Origin: Faecalibacterium sp.
GTDB taxonomy: Bacteria; Bacillota; Clostridia; Oscillospirales; Ruminococcaceae
DNA: 61,288 bases
NCBI GenBank assembly: GCA_029264955.1
Contig: JARHYC010000008.1
Span: 1-61,288 of the forward strand
Reading direction: 5' to 3'
Both the position numbers and the translations under genes were made by a program. Of this stretch, positions 3,876-25,608 are shown in pieces. Numbering within the stretch: position 1 is the first letter of the stretch; the number at the start of each line of letters is the position of its first letter. The notes below the pieces were generated by a model. It saw nothing but the letters and a program-made list of their open reading frames with translations. It did no database searches and had not been told where the DNA came from.

Positions 3876-4055
3876 GGACAGGGCCGCGGGGAACATTCCC
3901 CGCCTTGCGGAGCTCGGCATACAGATGCAGGGTGGCTGCGGCGCACGGTACGAACGCTTAAGGCTGCTTGGTTCCCCACCTGACCTGGTTCACGGCCGGA
4001 CCATCGCACAGGCCCCACATCTGTATGCCGAACCACGCAGCAGGCGCTGTCCGGT
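3876..4055 (-). ncRNA. ffs: Signal recognition particle RNA
   Basis: The minus strand contains GAACCAGGTCAGGTGGGGAA followed by CCAAGCAGCC, the conserved SRP RNA Ffh-binding domain with a GGAA tetraloop. Flanking arms pair at long range (GGCATACAGATG near 4018-4030 with CATCTGTATGCC near 3916-3928, and GGACAG with CTGTCC at the ends). A run of T follows the 3' end and serves as terminator. The promoter at 4063-4091 would start transcription near 4056. The length of about 180 nt lies between the E. coli 4.5S form and the Bacillus form. The ends are estimated. Confidence 0.88.
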
Positions 4056-18879: not shown

Positions 18880-19009
18880 CTATTGTATCCTCTTCGCTTA
18901 TTGACTCCGGAAGTATATTCTTTCCAGAAAACATCGATTTAACGCAGTTTTCAACCAATTCACTATTTCATGTTGAAAATTACGCAGTTTCGCTTATTTT
19001 ATGCAACGA

Positions 19010-19042
19010 AAAAGGTCCGCTGTGCAAACACAGCGGACCTTT
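19010..19042 (-). terminator. Terminator of the GGGtGRT operon
   Basis: AAAGGTCCGCTGTG and CACAGCGGACCTTT form a 14-bp stem with a CAAA loop just past the operon's last stop codon. Confidence 0.88.
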
Positions 19043-19056
19043 ACAATCAAGAGATA

Positions 19057-20052
19057 TTATTCAGCCTGAGAAGCTGCAACAGCGCAAGCGACGGTCATAC
19101 CGACCATCGGGTTGTTGCCAGCGCCGATCAGACCCATCATCTCGACGTGAGCAGGAACAGAAGAAGAACCTGCGAACTGAGCGTCACCATGCATACGGCC
19201 CATGGTATCGGTCATGCCGTAAGAAGCAGGACCTGCTGCCACGTTATCGGGATGCAGGGTGCGGCCCGTGCCGCCGCCGGAAGCAACGGAGAAGTACTTC
19301 TTGCCGTTCTCCATAGCCCACTTCTTGTAGGTACCAGCAACGGGGTGCTGGAAGCGAGTGGGGTTGGTAGAGTTGCCGGTGATGGAAACTTCAACCGCTT
19401 CCTTCTTCATGATAGCAACGCCTTCCTGAACGTCGTTAGCGCCGTAGCACTTAACTGCTGCGCGCTCGCCCTCAGAGAAAGCCTTCTCACGAACGACCTT
19501 CAGGTCGCCGGTAGCGAAGTCGTAGTCGGTCTCCACATAGGTGAAGCCGTTGATACGGCTGATGATGTAAGCAGCATCCTTGCCCAGACCGTTCAGGATA
19601 ACGCGCAGAGGAGTCTTACGTGCCTTGTTAGCGGTACGAGCAATGCCCAGTGCGCCCTCAGCAGCTGCGAAGGACTCGTGGCCTGCCAGGAATGCGAAGC
19701 ACTTGGTATCGTCATCCAGCAGCATTGCGCCCAGGTTACCATGACCCAGACCAACCTTACGCTGCTCTGCAACAGAGCCGGGAATGGTGAAAGCTTCCAG
19801 ACCTTCGCCGATAGCAGCAGCGCACTCAGAAGCGTTCTTCAGGCCGCGCTTAACAGCAATAGCGGTGCCCAGGGTGTATGCCCAGACAGCGTTCTCGAAG
19901 CAGATGGGCTGAATGCCCTTAACAATAGACTCGCAGTCAATGCCCTTTGCGAGGAGCATGTCGCGGCAAGCGTCCAGAGATTCCAGGCCATTAGCCTTCA
20001 GGCATGCCTCGATCTTCGGCATACGGCGATCCATAGATTCAAATGTAGCCAT
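19057..20052 (-). CDS. GGGtGRT family protein
   Basis: The 331-residue protein belongs to the family named after its GGGTGRT motif, here at residues 259-265 followed by LHP. No biochemical role is established to my knowledge. Other stretches that look conserved are GLGHGNLGAMLLDD, FLAGHESFAAAEGALGIA, GRMHGDAQF and NPMVGMTVACAVAASQ. There is no signal peptide or membrane segment. It has a few scattered cysteines (such as KCYGA and VACAV) but no CxxC. It follows the NifU-like gene by 18 bp with an AGGAGGA-type site. Codon use is extremely biased, which predicts very high expression. I infer that the two work together in metal-sulfur or thiol chemistry. Confidence 0.88.
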   Translation of the reverse strand: MATFESMDRRMPKIEACLKANGLESLDACRDMLLAKGIDCESIVKGIQPICFENAVWAYTLGTAIAVKRGLKNASECAAAIGEGLEAFTIPGSVAEQRKVGLGHGNLGAMLLDDDTKCFAFLAGHESFAAAEGALGIARTANKARKTPLRVILNGLGKDAAYIISRINGFTYVETDYDFATGDLKVVREKAFSEGERAAVKCYGANDVQEGVAIMKKEAVEVSITGNSTNPTRFQHPVAGTYKKWAMENGKKYFSVASGGGTGRTLHPDNVAAGPASYGMTDTMGRMHGDAQFAGSSSVPAHVEMMGLIGAGNNPMVGMTVACAVAASQAE

Positions 20053-20070
20053 AATAAAACTCCTCCTTTC

Positions 20071-20763
20071 TTATTCTTCGCGGGGATCGATGTACTTAGC
20101 AGCCTCAGCAAAACGGCCGTAAGTGCCGATATTGCTCTCGTAAGCTTCCTTAGCATCGACACCGTGACGAATTGCTTCCATCATCTTGCCCAGGCGGACG
20201 AACTGGTAGCCGATAACTTCGTTGTCAGCATCCAGAGCCAGCTTAGTGATGTAGCCTTCGGTCAGCTCCAGGTAACGAACACCCTTTGCCTTGGTGGAGA
20301 AGATGGTACCGGTCATGGAACGCAGGCCCTTACCCAGGTCCTCCAGACCAGCGCCGACAGGCAGACCGTCTTCAGAGAAAGCAGTCTGAGTACGACCGTA
20401 AACGATCTGCAGGAACAGCTCGCGCATTGCAACGTTGATTGCGTCGCAGACCAGGTCCGTGTTCAGAGCCTCCAGAATGGTCTTGCCGGGCAGGATTTCG
20501 CCTGCCATAGCAGCAGAGTGCGTCATGCCGGAGCAGCCGATGGTCTCAACCAGAGCTTCTTCGATGACACCGTTCTTAACATTCAGGGTCAGCTTGCAGG
20601 TACCCTGCTGGGGTGCGCACCAGCCCACACCGTGGGTCAGGCCGGAAATGTCGCTGATCTGGTATGCCTTAACCCACTTGCCCTCTTCGGGAATGGGGGC
20701 CGGACCATGGTTAGGACCCTTGGTCAACGGGCACATACGCTCGACTTCATGAGAATAGTTCAT
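20071..20763 (-). CDS. NifU/IscU-like iron-sulfur scaffold protein
   Basis: The 230-residue protein contains a region like the NifU N-terminal scaffold. GTCKLTLNVKNGVIEEALVE and TIGCSGMTHSAAMAGEILPG place cysteines 56 and 77 where IscU has its first two ligands. Cys106 (DLVCDAIN) could be the third, at a slightly different spacing. Cys11 and Cys49 are extra. About 100 residues after the scaffold (from about 125 on) have no match I know. The ATG at 20763 follows AAAGGAGAG. It is the first gene of a two-gene operon with the GGGtGRT protein. A general Isc/Suf role is unlikely without IscS beside it. Confidence 0.85.
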   Translation of the reverse strand: MNYSHEVERMCPLTKGPNHGPAPIPEEGKWVKAYQISDISGLTHGVGWCAPQQGTCKLTLNVKNGVIEEALVETIGCSGMTHSAAMAGEILPGKTILEALNTDLVCDAINVAMRELFLQIVYGRTQTAFSEDGLPVGAGLEDLGKGLRSMTGTIFSTKAKGVRYLELTEGYITKLALDADNEVIGYQFVRLGKMMEAIRHGVDAKEAYESNIGTYGRFAEAAKYIDPREE

Positions 20764-20792
20764 GATGATCTCTCCTTTATCTTATTGATAAA

Positions 20793-20818
20793 CGGGGCTC
20801 GTCCGGGACGAATCCCCG
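20793..20818 (-). promoter_or_regulatory. GC-rich stem-loop in the NifU-like leader
   Basis: The leader between promoter and start folds as CGGGG-x-TTCGTCC paired with GGACGA-x-CCCCG. It lies 30 bp upstream of the ATG and is not followed by T, so it is not a terminator. A 5' stabiliser of an abundant mRNA or a protein-binding site is possible. Confidence 0.55.
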
Positions 20819-20838
20819 GTGTAACCACGCTTACATTT

Positions 20839-20867
20839 ATTATAAGGAAATTCGCCTTTTTTTTCAA
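20839..20867 (-). promoter_or_regulatory. Promoter of the NifU-like/GGGtGRT operon
   Basis: The minus strand has TTGAAA (20867-20862), 17 bp and TATAAT (20844-20839). The perfect -10 box and spacing agree with the strong codon bias of the operon. Confidence 0.78.
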
Positions 20868-20940
20868 GATGGGTCAACATAAAATTCACAATGCTATCCC
20901 TCTGTTTTTTCGTCCAATCTGCTCACGAATTGTTTTCCAC

Positions 20941-20985
20941 AAAAAAAGAACTCCCGGCCTGTAGCACAGGAGTTCTTCTTTTTAA
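20941..20985 (-). terminator. Terminator of the flavoprotein gene
   Basis: GAACTCC pairs with GGAGTTC around a loop, with T7 following on the minus strand, directly after the stop at 20992. Confidence 0.82.
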
Positions 20986-20991
20986 GTTGCC

Positions 20992-22785
20992 TTACTGGCC
21001 AAGTGCGCTCTTTACCGCAGCACGCAAGCCTTCGCTGGAGCGGGTTGCACCTGCAACCGCATCAATATCCAGATTTTGTGTCTTAATCAGGTTCGGGATA
21101 AACTGCTCTTCCGCACCTGCATAGATATTGGGAGTTTCGGACTGCTCCAAAACCTTAATCTCAGTAATGCTGCCGTCCTTAACCGTTACCTCTACCTTGA
21201 TCATGCCATTCATGCCCTGGCCCTCACCAGTGAATGTACCATCGGTAAAGTTACCCTTTGCGCCTTCTGCTTCCGGAGCCTTTTCGCCGCGCTCAAAGGG
21301 AATATGCTCGGTCAAGCCGCCACGGTCATTGATGTATTCAATTGCATTGCGTGCAGACACGCGGCCAAAAACAGCTGCCTCGCCCAAACCAACAGAGTAA
21401 TAAGTACCCTGTACATTGCCAATTACTTCGCCTGCTGCATACAGACCCTTGATTGGCTTGTTGTCAGTATTCAGCACACGGCCAGTGGTATCCGCCTTAA
21501 CACCGCCCAGCGTATCCATCACGCCCGGAGTCAGCGGAATTGCATAGAAGGGGCCCTTCTTGTAGCTATCGGCTTTCTCGACCACGACCTCATTGCCAAT
21601 ACCATCTGTCTTCAGGTTTGCAATCGTTTCGGTCAGAACGGCAACATCCACACCGATTTTCTCTGCCAGTTCTTCAATAGTATCTGCCTTTACCAGCAGC
21701 TTGCTGTTGTCGATGCCGTTCATACGGTATTCGTCAAAGAAATCCTTTTCTTCAACTGCAACAAATTCCTGATAAATTTCTTCGTTATAAATGCCATAGC
21801 ACTCAGCGTCCGTCTGCTTCAGAATATCCTCTGAGATGCGGCGGTCAGAGCTTGCTTCACTATACTCATTGGTGAAACGCTTGCCTTCTTTATTGACGAA
21901 AATGACACCGTTATTCTTCAGCGGCATCTGCATCTGAATCGAGAAGGGTGCCACTGCGCAGGATAGCTGAATCAGATTCATATTAACCAGCTGTGCACCC
22001 AGCTTTTCTGCCATAACAATGCCATCGCCCATGTTGCCCTGGCTCGGTGCCAGATGGATGTTTGCCAGACCCGGGTTATCGTACTTTGCAATCATTTCAG
22101 GATTGGATTCAAAGCCGCCAGTTGCCAAAATGACAGCTGTTGTATCAATAGTATACTCGCCCTCAGGGCCCTGTACCTTCACACCGCAAATGCGGCCGTC
22201 AGCATCTGCGACCAAGTCCACAGCCGGAGAGTTATAGCGAATCTCAACGCCATTCTTTTCAGCCTGCTGCTTCAAAACCTTCACCAACTCCACACCGGGG
22301 ATGGTGCCATCGGTCGGGCAGTGCAGATCGTTATAACGAATCTTGCCCCACTCAGAACCAAAGCCATACAACCATTCGATGACAGCGGGGGTCTGCATTG
22401 CAACCACACTAGCCATGTCAGGATCATTCAGGCCAGAACCGTTTTTGATAATGCGGTCCGCCAACTGAATGGGCGTTTCCTCGCGGCCCAGTGCATCCAT
22501 AAAGCGGGAGTTGGTGCAGTTAAAGCCACCAAATGCCATAGTAGTGCTGCCACCCGCAAAAGACATTTTTTCCAGAACCACAATGTTTTTTGCGCCCTGC
22601 TCGCTGGCCTCGACTGCCGCTGCCAAACCAGCGCCGCCGGCACCAATAATTACGATGTCAAACTGTTCATTCTTGCCCTCCGGCTGTTTTGCCGGTGTAC
22701 CATTCGCTTCGTTGCCAGTTGTACCGCACGCTGCCAGCGAAAGTACCATCACTGCACTCAACAAGAGTGCCAGAAACTTTTTCAT
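20992..22785 (-). CDS. Lipoprotein flavoenzyme, fumarate reductase-like, with FMN-binding domain
   Basis: The start MKKFLALL (22785) is chosen because GAGGAGG lies nine bases upstream; the ATG two codons earlier is too close. A lipoprotein signal ends at LAAC (Cys20). The FAD domain begins IVIIGAGGAGLAAAVEASEQG. It continues with fumarate reductase blocks (TTMAFGGFNCTNSRF, VDLVADADGRICGV, TTAVILATGGFESN, GGVKADTTGRVLN, GLYAAGEVIG). The last 75 residues form an FMN-binding domain with DAVAGAT, the site where ApbE couples FMN to Thr. It likely reduces an enoate-type acceptor outside the membrane. The acceptor (fumarate, urocanate, cinnamate or other) is unknown. Confidence 0.9.
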   Translation of the reverse strand: MKKFLALLLSAVMVLSLAACGTTGNEANGTPAKQPEGKNEQFDIVIIGAGGAGLAAAVEASEQGAKNIVVLEKMSFAGGSTTMAFGGFNCTNSRFMDALGREETPIQLADRIIKNGSGLNDPDMASVVAMQTPAVIEWLYGFGSEWGKIRYNDLHCPTDGTIPGVELVKVLKQQAEKNGVEIRYNSPAVDLVADADGRICGVKVQGPEGEYTIDTTAVILATGGFESNPEMIAKYDNPGLANIHLAPSQGNMGDGIVMAEKLGAQLVNMNLIQLSCAVAPFSIQMQMPLKNNGVIFVNKEGKRFTNEYSEASSDRRISEDILKQTDAECYGIYNEEIYQEFVAVEEKDFFDEYRMNGIDNSKLLVKADTIEELAEKIGVDVAVLTETIANLKTDGIGNEVVVEKADSYKKGPFYAIPLTPGVMDTLGGVKADTTGRVLNTDNKPIKGLYAAGEVIGNVQGTYYSVGLGEAAVFGRVSARNAIEYINDRGGLTEHIPFERGEKAPEAEGAKGNFTDGTFTGEGQGMNGMIKVEVTVKDGSITEIKVLEQSETPNIYAGAEEQFIPNLIKTQNLDIDAVAGATRSSEGLRAAVKSALGQ

Positions 22786-22853
22786 ATCCATTATCCTCCT
22801 CAATATGACGCGTCGAAAGCAGCTTTTTTGTTTTCGCCGCAAAAGTCTTGTCT

Positions 22854-24123: not shown

Positions 24124-25608
24124 TCAGAAGAACAGGTCCTTGCCGGGATAGACAGGTTCGCTAGTTACACGCAGACCCAAACGGCGCAATGTACCTTCGT
24201 CACCAGAGTGCAGCATCTGGGTGGAGTGGAACTCGCACTCACGCAGTTCCTTCAGTGCCCACATAGCGCGTGCCGTCATAGTGTTGGTTGCGCCAGAGAT
24301 TGCCAGCGCAGTCAGCACATCATCCAGCTTCAGCAATGTGCTGCGGCTGTTCAGGATTTCTGTCTTCAGCTGCAACATCGGTTGCAGAATGATGGGGGTC
24401 AGCAGTGTCAGCTCATCATCAATGTTCGTCAGTGCCTTAATTGCATTCAGCACACAGGAAGCAGAAGCACTCATCAACTTACTTTCTTTGCCGGTAATGA
24501 TACGACCGTCCACCAACTCGATTGCCGCAGCAGGCGTGCAGTTGTTCTGTGACTTATCCAACGCAGCACCAACAACTTTGCGGATATCCGGGGTAATATC
24601 CAGCTGGCGCATAATCATGCGGATCTTATCCAAAGATTCCGTAGTACCGGTTCCCTTACGCACAGCGCACTTTGCCGCAAAGAAACGGCGAATGATTTCC
24701 TGACGGCTTGCCTCACAAACAACTTCATCATCAATGATGGCGTTACCAACCATATTCACACCCATATCCGTGGGGCTCTTATAATCAAATGCACCATTGC
24801 TGATGCGTGCCAGCGTACTCTTTACAATGGGGAATGCTTCCACATCGCGATTATAGTTGACAGTGGTTTCACCGTAAGCATCCAGATGGAATGGGTCAAT
24901 CATATTGACGTCGTTCAAGTCTGCGGTAGCAGCCTCATATGCCAAATTGACCGGGTGCTTCAAAGGCATATTCCAGATGGGGAAAGTTTCAAACTTTGCA
25001 TAACCGGCATTCACACCGCGCAGACTCTCGTGATACACCTGAGACAGGCAGGTAGCCAGCTTGCCGCTGCCGGGACCGGGAGCAGTAACAACAACCAGAG
25101 GCTTAGTGGTTTCAATATAGGGGTTGGAGCCAAAACCTTCGTCGCTGCAAATATAATCAATTTCGGTGGGGTAGCCCTTGATAGACTTATGTGCGTAGTT
25201 CTTCACGCCGCGCTGGGTCAACTTGGACATAAAGGCATCTGCAGCTGCCTGACCTGCATAGCGAGTGATTACAACGCTATTGACCTGAATTCCCAGACGA
25301 GTAATGTCATCAATCAGGCGCAGAACGTCCATATCGTAAGTGATGCCCAGGTCTGCACGAACCTTGGTCTTTTCAATATCGCCCGCAGACACGACAAAGA
25401 TGATCTCTGCCATATCACGCAGCTCGCACAGCAGCTTGATTTTTGCGTTCACATCAAAGCCGGGCAGCACGCGTGCTGCATGGTAATCGTCAAACAGCTT
25501 ACCACCAAACTCCAGATACAGCTTGCCATTGGAGTTCTCGATACGCTCCAGGATATGCTCCTTTTGCTTTTTCATATAAAGCTCATTGTCAAAACCGATC
25601 TTTGCCAT
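24124..25608 (-). CDS. DUF1846 family protein
   Basis: The 494-residue soluble protein matches DUF1846 over its length. It begins IGFDNELYMKKQKEHILERI and has LYLEFGGKLFDDYHAARVLPGFD, VTAPGPGSGKLATCLSQVYHE (a loop like a nucleotide-binding P-loop), AYGETTVNYNRDVEAFPIV and SPTDMGVNMVG. The family is common in anaerobic and lactic Firmicutes, and its function is not settled. The P-loop-like GPGSGK suggests nucleotide binding (inference). GGAG precedes the ATG. It appears to be a single-gene unit. Confidence 0.88.
   Translation of the reverse strand: MAKIGFDNELYMKKQKEHILERIENSNGKLYLEFGGKLFDDYHAARVLPGFDVNAKIKLLCELRDMAEIIFVVSAGDIEKTKVRADLGITYDMDVLRLIDDITRLGIQVNSVVITRYAGQAAADAFMSKLTQRGVKNYAHKSIKGYPTEIDYICSDEGFGSNPYIETTKPLVVVTAPGPGSGKLATCLSQVYHESLRGVNAGYAKFETFPIWNMPLKHPVNLAYEAATADLNDVNMIDPFHLDAYGETTVNYNRDVEAFPIVKSTLARISNGAFDYKSPTDMGVNMVGNAIIDDEVVCEASRQEIIRRFFAAKCAVRKGTGTTESLDKIRMIMRQLDITPDIRKVVGAALDKSQNNCTPAAAIELVDGRIITGKESKLMSASASCVLNAIKALTNIDDELTLLTPIILQPMLQLKTEILNSRSTLLKLDDVLTALAISGATNTMTARAMWALKELRECEFHSTQMLHSGDEGTLRRLGLRVTSEPVYPGKDLFF

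Follow-up and report, generated by a model that had tools for sequence, protein, structure and literature searches.

The window analyzed here (the whole stretch of 61,288 nucleotides of Faecalibacterium sp. contig JARHYC010000008.1) carried a two-gene operon encoding an IscU-like protein (designated N) and a GGGtGRT-family protein (designated G). N and G constituted an inseparable gene pair, the model of N displayed an IscU fold, and characteristic IscU motifs were lost from N. The pair was read, at a little below an even chance, as a putative iron-dependent enzyme composed of an IscU derivative that keeps its cluster (N) and the partner protein G. N would be an IscU gone from the assembly line: with the fold and a pole of three cysteines (Cys49, Cys77, and Cys106) preserved, it would have shed the chaperone loop (LPPVK in Escherichia coli) and two residues linked to release of the cluster, an aspartate and a histidine, and gained a C-terminal domain. 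A permanently bound iron–sulfur (Fe-S) cluster or other metal site is probable, because the release residues and the chaperone loop are gone while the cysteine pole is kept, and the ISC or SUF-like machinery of the cell would supply this cluster. G would be the constant partner, most likely bearing the substrate or nucleotide site, with its glycine-rich GGGtGRT loop as a putative anion-binding lid, and the two together would make up a single abundant enzyme dependent on iron; the bound cluster, the N–G complex, and the catalysis are what we infer. Both genes lay on the minus strand in the two-gene layout described by the first-pass annotation:

20071–20763, minus strand: gene for N, IscU-like protein of 230 amino acids (aa); residues 38–124 IscU fold, residues about 150–230 extra C-terminal domain
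19057–20052, minus strand: gene for G, GGGtGRT protein of 331 aa; N-terminal helices 1–112, Rossmann-like domain about 110–318
20053–20070, minus strand: 18-bp intergenic gap between N and G

Linkage of N and G was surveyed in 299 phylum genomes with a completeness of 90% or more, of which 19 contained PF14057, the Pfam family of G, and 280 did not. The N profile gave 20 high-scoring places (at least 407 bits; next best 34 bits) and the G profile also 20 (at least 577 bits; next best 15 bits); all 20 N places and all 20 G places were adjacent on the same strand at a distance of 15–100 bp (stop codon included), and no orphan N or orphan G was found by these profile searches. A second set contained 109 loci, including the window itself and 80 named genome loci (the best 80 of 586 confirmed stretches, biased toward close relatives), and N was directly upstream of G in 108 of them, the exception being a contig that started 55 bp before G (L077). 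The pair was thus inseparable in the co-occurrence count, a check set beforehand. All 10 plasmid-collection records likewise held both N and G, adjacent by coordinates, and N was upstream of G in the three phage-collection records examined out of six, the other three beginning inside G. Evolutionary distances of N and G were correlated (r 0.66, null maximum 0.31; 113 rows). No recurrent third gene was found: many of the 109 loci had 1.5-kb flanks only, and the commonest neighbor cluster, apart from N, G, and their antisense open reading frames (ORFs), was present in 11 of them. The N–G linkage was as strong as the searches could show.

The sequence and structure comparison was applied to N together with IscU and the NifU N-terminal domain (PF01592), the scaffold of the ISC system. 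They shared the fold, which predicted structure and structure search assigned to N residues 38–124, and the pole cysteines: the three cluster cysteines of E. coli IscU (37, 63, and 106) were matched in N by conserved Cys49, Cys77, and Cys106. The cysteine codons were as follows:

20617–20619, minus strand: Cys49, at the IscU Cys37 position in the beta1–beta2 loop; Cys in 112/112 rows having a residue there
20596–20598, minus strand: Cys56, the extra cysteine; Cys in 110/112 rows, Ala in L127 and L132
20533–20535, minus strand: Cys77, at the IscU Cys63 position by profile alignments; Cys in 112/113 rows, one X
20446–20448, minus strand: Cys106, at the IscU Cys106 position; Cys in 113/113 rows, preceded by Val105, not His

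Cysteines 56, 77, and 106 had originally been named as the IscU-like set, which held for 77 and 106, while the first IscU-type position belonged to Cys49 and Cys56 was the extra one (replaced by Ala in one Vibrio and one Persicobacter sequence); the weight earlier laid on Cys11 was withdrawn, this residue being variable (Cys in 94/113 rows). Unlike IscU and NifU, N had (i) no CGD aspartate, its first cysteine being followed by Ala-Pro (Pro51 in 112/112 rows), while CGD was kept in 15/15 IscU/SufU loci compared; (ii) neither the LPxxKxHC loop, present in 14/15 of these loci, nor its histidine, having DLVC instead (V105 in 113/113 rows); and (iii) the additional Cys56, the additional C-terminal domain, and the constant partner G. 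It was the combined loss of aspartate, histidine, and chaperone loop that appeared, from the alignments, to carry the argument for a retained cluster. A possible internal repeat in N, between its IscU part and its C-terminal part, was rejected (hhalign probability 0.2%).

Databases named N 'nitrogen-fixing protein NifU' or 'iron-sulfur cluster assembly scaffold protein', which would make it a general housekeeping Fe-S scaffold. The fold agreed with these names, as did a weak match to the NifU_N profile PF01592 (19.6 bits for the window protein, below the curated cut-off of 22, which two of the five N places listed for 21 relatives, counting that of the window, reached at 22.4 and 23.2 bits). 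N nevertheless fell far under the cut-offs of NifU_clost (24 against 187.9 bits) and IscU (19.8 against 192.4 bits), PF14057, which accompanies N, was missing from 280/299 phylum genomes, and the window genome also encoded a SufB-type protein and a canonical IscU with aspartate, loop, and histidine. The IscS-like ORF of this genome adjoined that other IscU, and no cysteine desulfurase was among the six nearest window genes checked. The general-assembly reading was accordingly very unlikely, and the first-pass view that N is not a general scaffold was borne out because a canonical IscU is encoded elsewhere in the genome. N could alternatively be a zinc or persulfide protein like SufU of Bacillus subtilis, binding zinc or carrying sulfur that G would use. 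SufU shared the fold (5xt5_C, probability 1.00, E 0.011), but N was under the SUF_scaf_2 cut-off (17.8 against 92.5 bits) and had Ala-Pro after its first cysteine, no desulfurase was found among the six nearest genes checked or recurring near the pair in the 109 loci, and the published response, given below, was to iron, with zinc outside the comparison of those studies; this alternative was considered very unlikely. A Foldseek row for the joint model described below was 3r07_C, an archaeal lipoate ligase subunit (probability 0.97; matched part of N unreported), which we take to have a SufE/NifU-type fold.

G was a full-length member of PF14057 (624.6 bits against a cut-off of 27, residues 4–329, E 4e-188), a family whose Pfam description gave neither a function nor the constant partner N. 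Its eponymous motif was found where it had been annotated:

19258–19278, minus strand: GGGTGRT motif, G residues 259–265, start of the low-confidence loop 261–277

In an alignment of 114 rows, six of the seven motif positions were invariant (T262 being the exception), as were 108/331 positions of the whole protein, among which Gly, Asn, Arg, Lys, His, and Asp were frequent. No cysteine of G was invariant in these rows, and therefore any fourth cluster ligand coming from G would be another residue. The G model (mean predicted local distance difference test [pLDDT] 87, predicted template modeling score [pTM] 0.88) consisted of helices only in its N-terminal part, followed by a Rossmann-like domain, with the stretch 261–277, from GGGtGRT onward, as its least certain part; such low confidence is as expected of a mobile lid. 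Structure searches returned only generic likeness to Rossmann-like nucleotide-binding folds, namely, UDP-GlcNAc 2-epimerases, short-chain dehydrogenases, and tubulin/FtsZ, the last being a GTP-binding fold with a GGGTG loop at the T4 position. No convincing distant relative was found in PDB sequences (best E 0.031 and 0.054), Pfam, or NCBIfam, and two candidates were rejected: Ni,Fe-CODH (Foldseek rank 2, E 0.038, probability 0.35), which lay within noise, and transketolase (NCBIfam, E 0.018), which was matched from 1/18 members only. G is, as modeled, an orphan, enzyme-like protein with a Rossmann-like domain.

A joint model was built by translating through the single stop codon that separates the two genes, as if it encoded an amino acid, which gave one 568-residue chain with a pTM of 0.76. 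If only G were placed and N were random, pTM would by arithmetic be limited to about 0.58 (331/568) plus a little, and the program therefore had some confidence in the mutual placement of N and G, which is suggestive of a putative N–G interface.

Published data tied the pair to iron in two species. In Bacteroides thetaiotaomicron, BT0173–0174 transcripts were down 11- to 12.8-fold in iron-depleted medium, with a 2.7- to 3-fold fall for ferritin and rubrerythrin (PMC10434189); in Clostridium pasteurianum, iron raised the G protein spot 7.1-fold in the early and 2.2-fold in the late phase and the two N spots 2.4- and 3.7-fold in the early phase, and hydrogenase, for comparison, rose up to 5.1-fold (PMC5395762). 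A high abundance, claimed from the sequence beforehand, found agreement in the reported high in vivo expression of G in Bacteroides, Megamonas, Megasphaera, Succinatimonas, and Blautia (PMC11204068).

This strong positive response would also be given by an iron or iron-sulfide store or buffer, in which N nucleates and holds Fe-S material and G is the bulk, with a ferritin-like rise with iron; in B. thetaiotaomicron the change of the pair even exceeded that of ferritin and rubrerythrin. Strong ferritin matches were present in 3/19 pair-bearing genomes versus 122/280 others (Fisher p 0.017), and fewer ferritins with the pair were also seen within the five families holding both kinds of genomes (one-sided p 0.018), but the positives (E 1e-15 or better) were read by eye at a cut-off picked after the table was seen, the genomes were related (7/19 in one family, f43), and a superoxide reductase control was associated more strongly in the opposite direction (17/19 versus 137/280, p 5.5e-4), so that lineage may explain both associations. 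The two profiles may keep the storage alternative alive and prove nothing. B. thetaiotaomicron, moreover, has ferritin besides the pair, and the 108 invariant G residues look catalytic rather than structural; a store was judged unlikely. An iron response would equally suit a dedicated assembly or carrier system, with N as a specialized scaffold and G as a nucleoside triphosphate- or redox-driven partner making a cluster for one client. The scaffold fold of N and the glycine-rich loops on the Rossmann-like domain, which fit a nucleotide, are consistent with it, and in one Collinsella record the pair followed sufCBDSU at a distance of 1.9 kb, a transposase lying in between. N, however, has lost the chaperone loop as well as the aspartate and histidine, neither a client gene nor a cysteine desulfurase recurred beside the pair in the 109 loci (many short-flanked), and the reported abundance is high for an assembly factor (PMC11204068); such a system was deemed improbable.

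Several observations weigh against the reading of N–G as a cluster-holding enzyme. Storage or assembly would account for the iron response just as well. The equivalence of Cys49 to IscU Cys37 rests on a modeled loop, the profile alignment starting only at residue 56. Strict LPPVK was present in only 4/15 IscU/SufU loci, and loss of the aspartate alone is a weak argument because the IscU proteins of Aquifex aeolicus and Archaeoglobus fulgidus are also without it and still scaffolds (PMC13423590). G had no clear structural match (best Foldseek E 0.032), and the joint model was moderate, with pLDDT of about 70 in the IscU part at a pTM of 0.76. Two records deviated from the strict pairing: (i) a Phocaeicola massiliensis record contained, near its end, a 54-residue piece of G (residues 277–330; L131:9125–9286) unaccompanied by N, either a remnant or an assembly artefact, although the same record also holds a complete pair roughly 2 kb away; and (ii) a Parabacteroides distasonis record carried an annotated 64-aa ORF between N and G (L130:8800–8991), possibly a third small component in that lineage. 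No function for GGGtGRT, BT0173/BT0174, or N was found in the literature searched, which was mostly without subscription papers and without preprints.

The database naming of N bears on gut surveys, and true IscU presumably also belongs to COG0822. C. pasteurianum N was filed under COG0822 (PMC5395762), and because databases name N as NifU, some of what metaproteomes of gut and rumen list as 'NifU' would be N. 'NifU' (COG0822) made up 1.0% of human gut core metaproteome spectra, about the level of pyruvate:ferredoxin oxidoreductase (PMC3261163), and in the rumen it accounted for 0.28, 1.72, and 1.47% in three cows, being among the top 25 protein families in all of them and counted as nitrogen fixation (PMC6043501). 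G and a 'NifU' both fell after feeding in the rumen, from different species (PMC7035244), and both were lower in colorectal cancer stools (PMC13041051); two further reports (PMC7671984 and PMC13386881) mention a NifU that could be N or true IscU. It is possible, though we would lean against it, that N–G constitutes an unrecognized metalloenzyme class, with an IscU captured as its permanent, cluster-carrying subunit and facing a Rossmann-like catalytic partner, and that much gut and rumen 'NifU' is this same enzyme, mistaken for a protein of Fe-S assembly or nitrogen fixation. The pair may rank among the commonest uncharacterized proteins of animal guts; if much 'NifU' were N, surveys would have mislabeled a dominant iron-dependent system, and N would, if the proposal is true, clearly exemplify the conversion of an assembly scaffold into a resident cofactor subunit. 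A virulence-prediction program placed GGGtGRT among the top-scoring putative virulence factors of Clostridium innocuum (PMC9942572), a label that looks false because of the distribution of GGGtGRT.

The pair was present in at least seven phylum-level groups, the named records, many of them gut or rumen genomes, including Bacillota, Actinomycetota, Pseudomonadota, Spirochaetota, Elusimicrobiota, Melainabacteria/Cyanobacteriota, and Bacteroidota; three Vibrio and two Persicobacter records also carried it, and therefore it is not confined to gut bacteria. In another genome of the window's own genus (G004), the pair (L001) was 72% identical to that of the window in G, and a quick tree from a single model placed it beside Collinsella and Succinivibrio (support 94; enclosing clade 98) and outside the clade of the window, which suggests a replacement by horizontal transfer. 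A further genome (G210) harbored two N–G pairs (L025 and L029), and the G of the second pair shared just 60% identity with that of the window; judging by this divergence, the second pair may act on another substrate. Travel on plasmids or phages found no support in the collections: the 10 plasmid-collection records ranged from 39,873 bp to 1.8 Mb and were all typed non-mobilizable, and the six phage-collection matches were unannotated fecal contigs, four of which started or ended inside G.

The operon was flanked by the following expression signals:

20839–20867, minus strand: promoter TTGAAA-17-TATAAT, 11/12 consensus matches
20793–20818, minus strand: leader hairpin in the 5′ untranslated region, from the fold of 20764–20837
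19006–19042, minus strand: intrinsic terminator, −25.1 kcal/mol, z −6.1, 0/200 shuffles as good

The TATAAT promoter and the strong terminator, both noticed in the first pass, were recovered, and CTTG(A/C)AAA...TATAAT was conserved in 8/8 aligned leaders (window's own counted). The GC-rich leader hairpin noticed alongside them was present as a fold (−21.6 kcal/mol, z −2.1) but only moderately beat chance, 7/200 shuffles being equally good, and it was not general, being missing from the Anaerofilum and Gemmiger leaders (two of eight compared). No Rfam family was found for the leader RNA, the sole weak match within 18900–21000 being at 20942–20995, far under its cut-off. The extreme codon bias also agreed with the earlier description: the effective number of codons was 30.7 for G and 33.7 for N, within a range of 30.4 to 61.1 for window ORFs of at least 150 codons (a greedy list, some antisense), one of which was below both. 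A gene-sized open frame of 664 aa ran antisense over N and G (18970–20964, plus strand); it probably arises from the strong codon bias of the two genes.

Of the neighboring window genes, the six nearest that were compared with Pfam encoded a flavoprotein, a DUF2087 regulator, a DUF1846 protein, Band_7, NfeD, and glycogen phosphorylase; none of the six was an Fe-S assembly gene or cysteine desulfurase. The flavoprotein (20992–22842, minus strand), which adjoined the pair, was lipoprotein-like with FAD_binding_2 and FMN_bind domains and presumably resembles exported anaerobic flavin reductases. The DUF1846 protein (24124–25608, minus strand; E 8.8e-169) belonged to a family named merely as of unknown function. 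Near one window end, a transfer-messenger RNA (tmRNA; 120–463) and a small signal recognition particle (SRP) RNA (3922–4020) were located, both on the minus strand.
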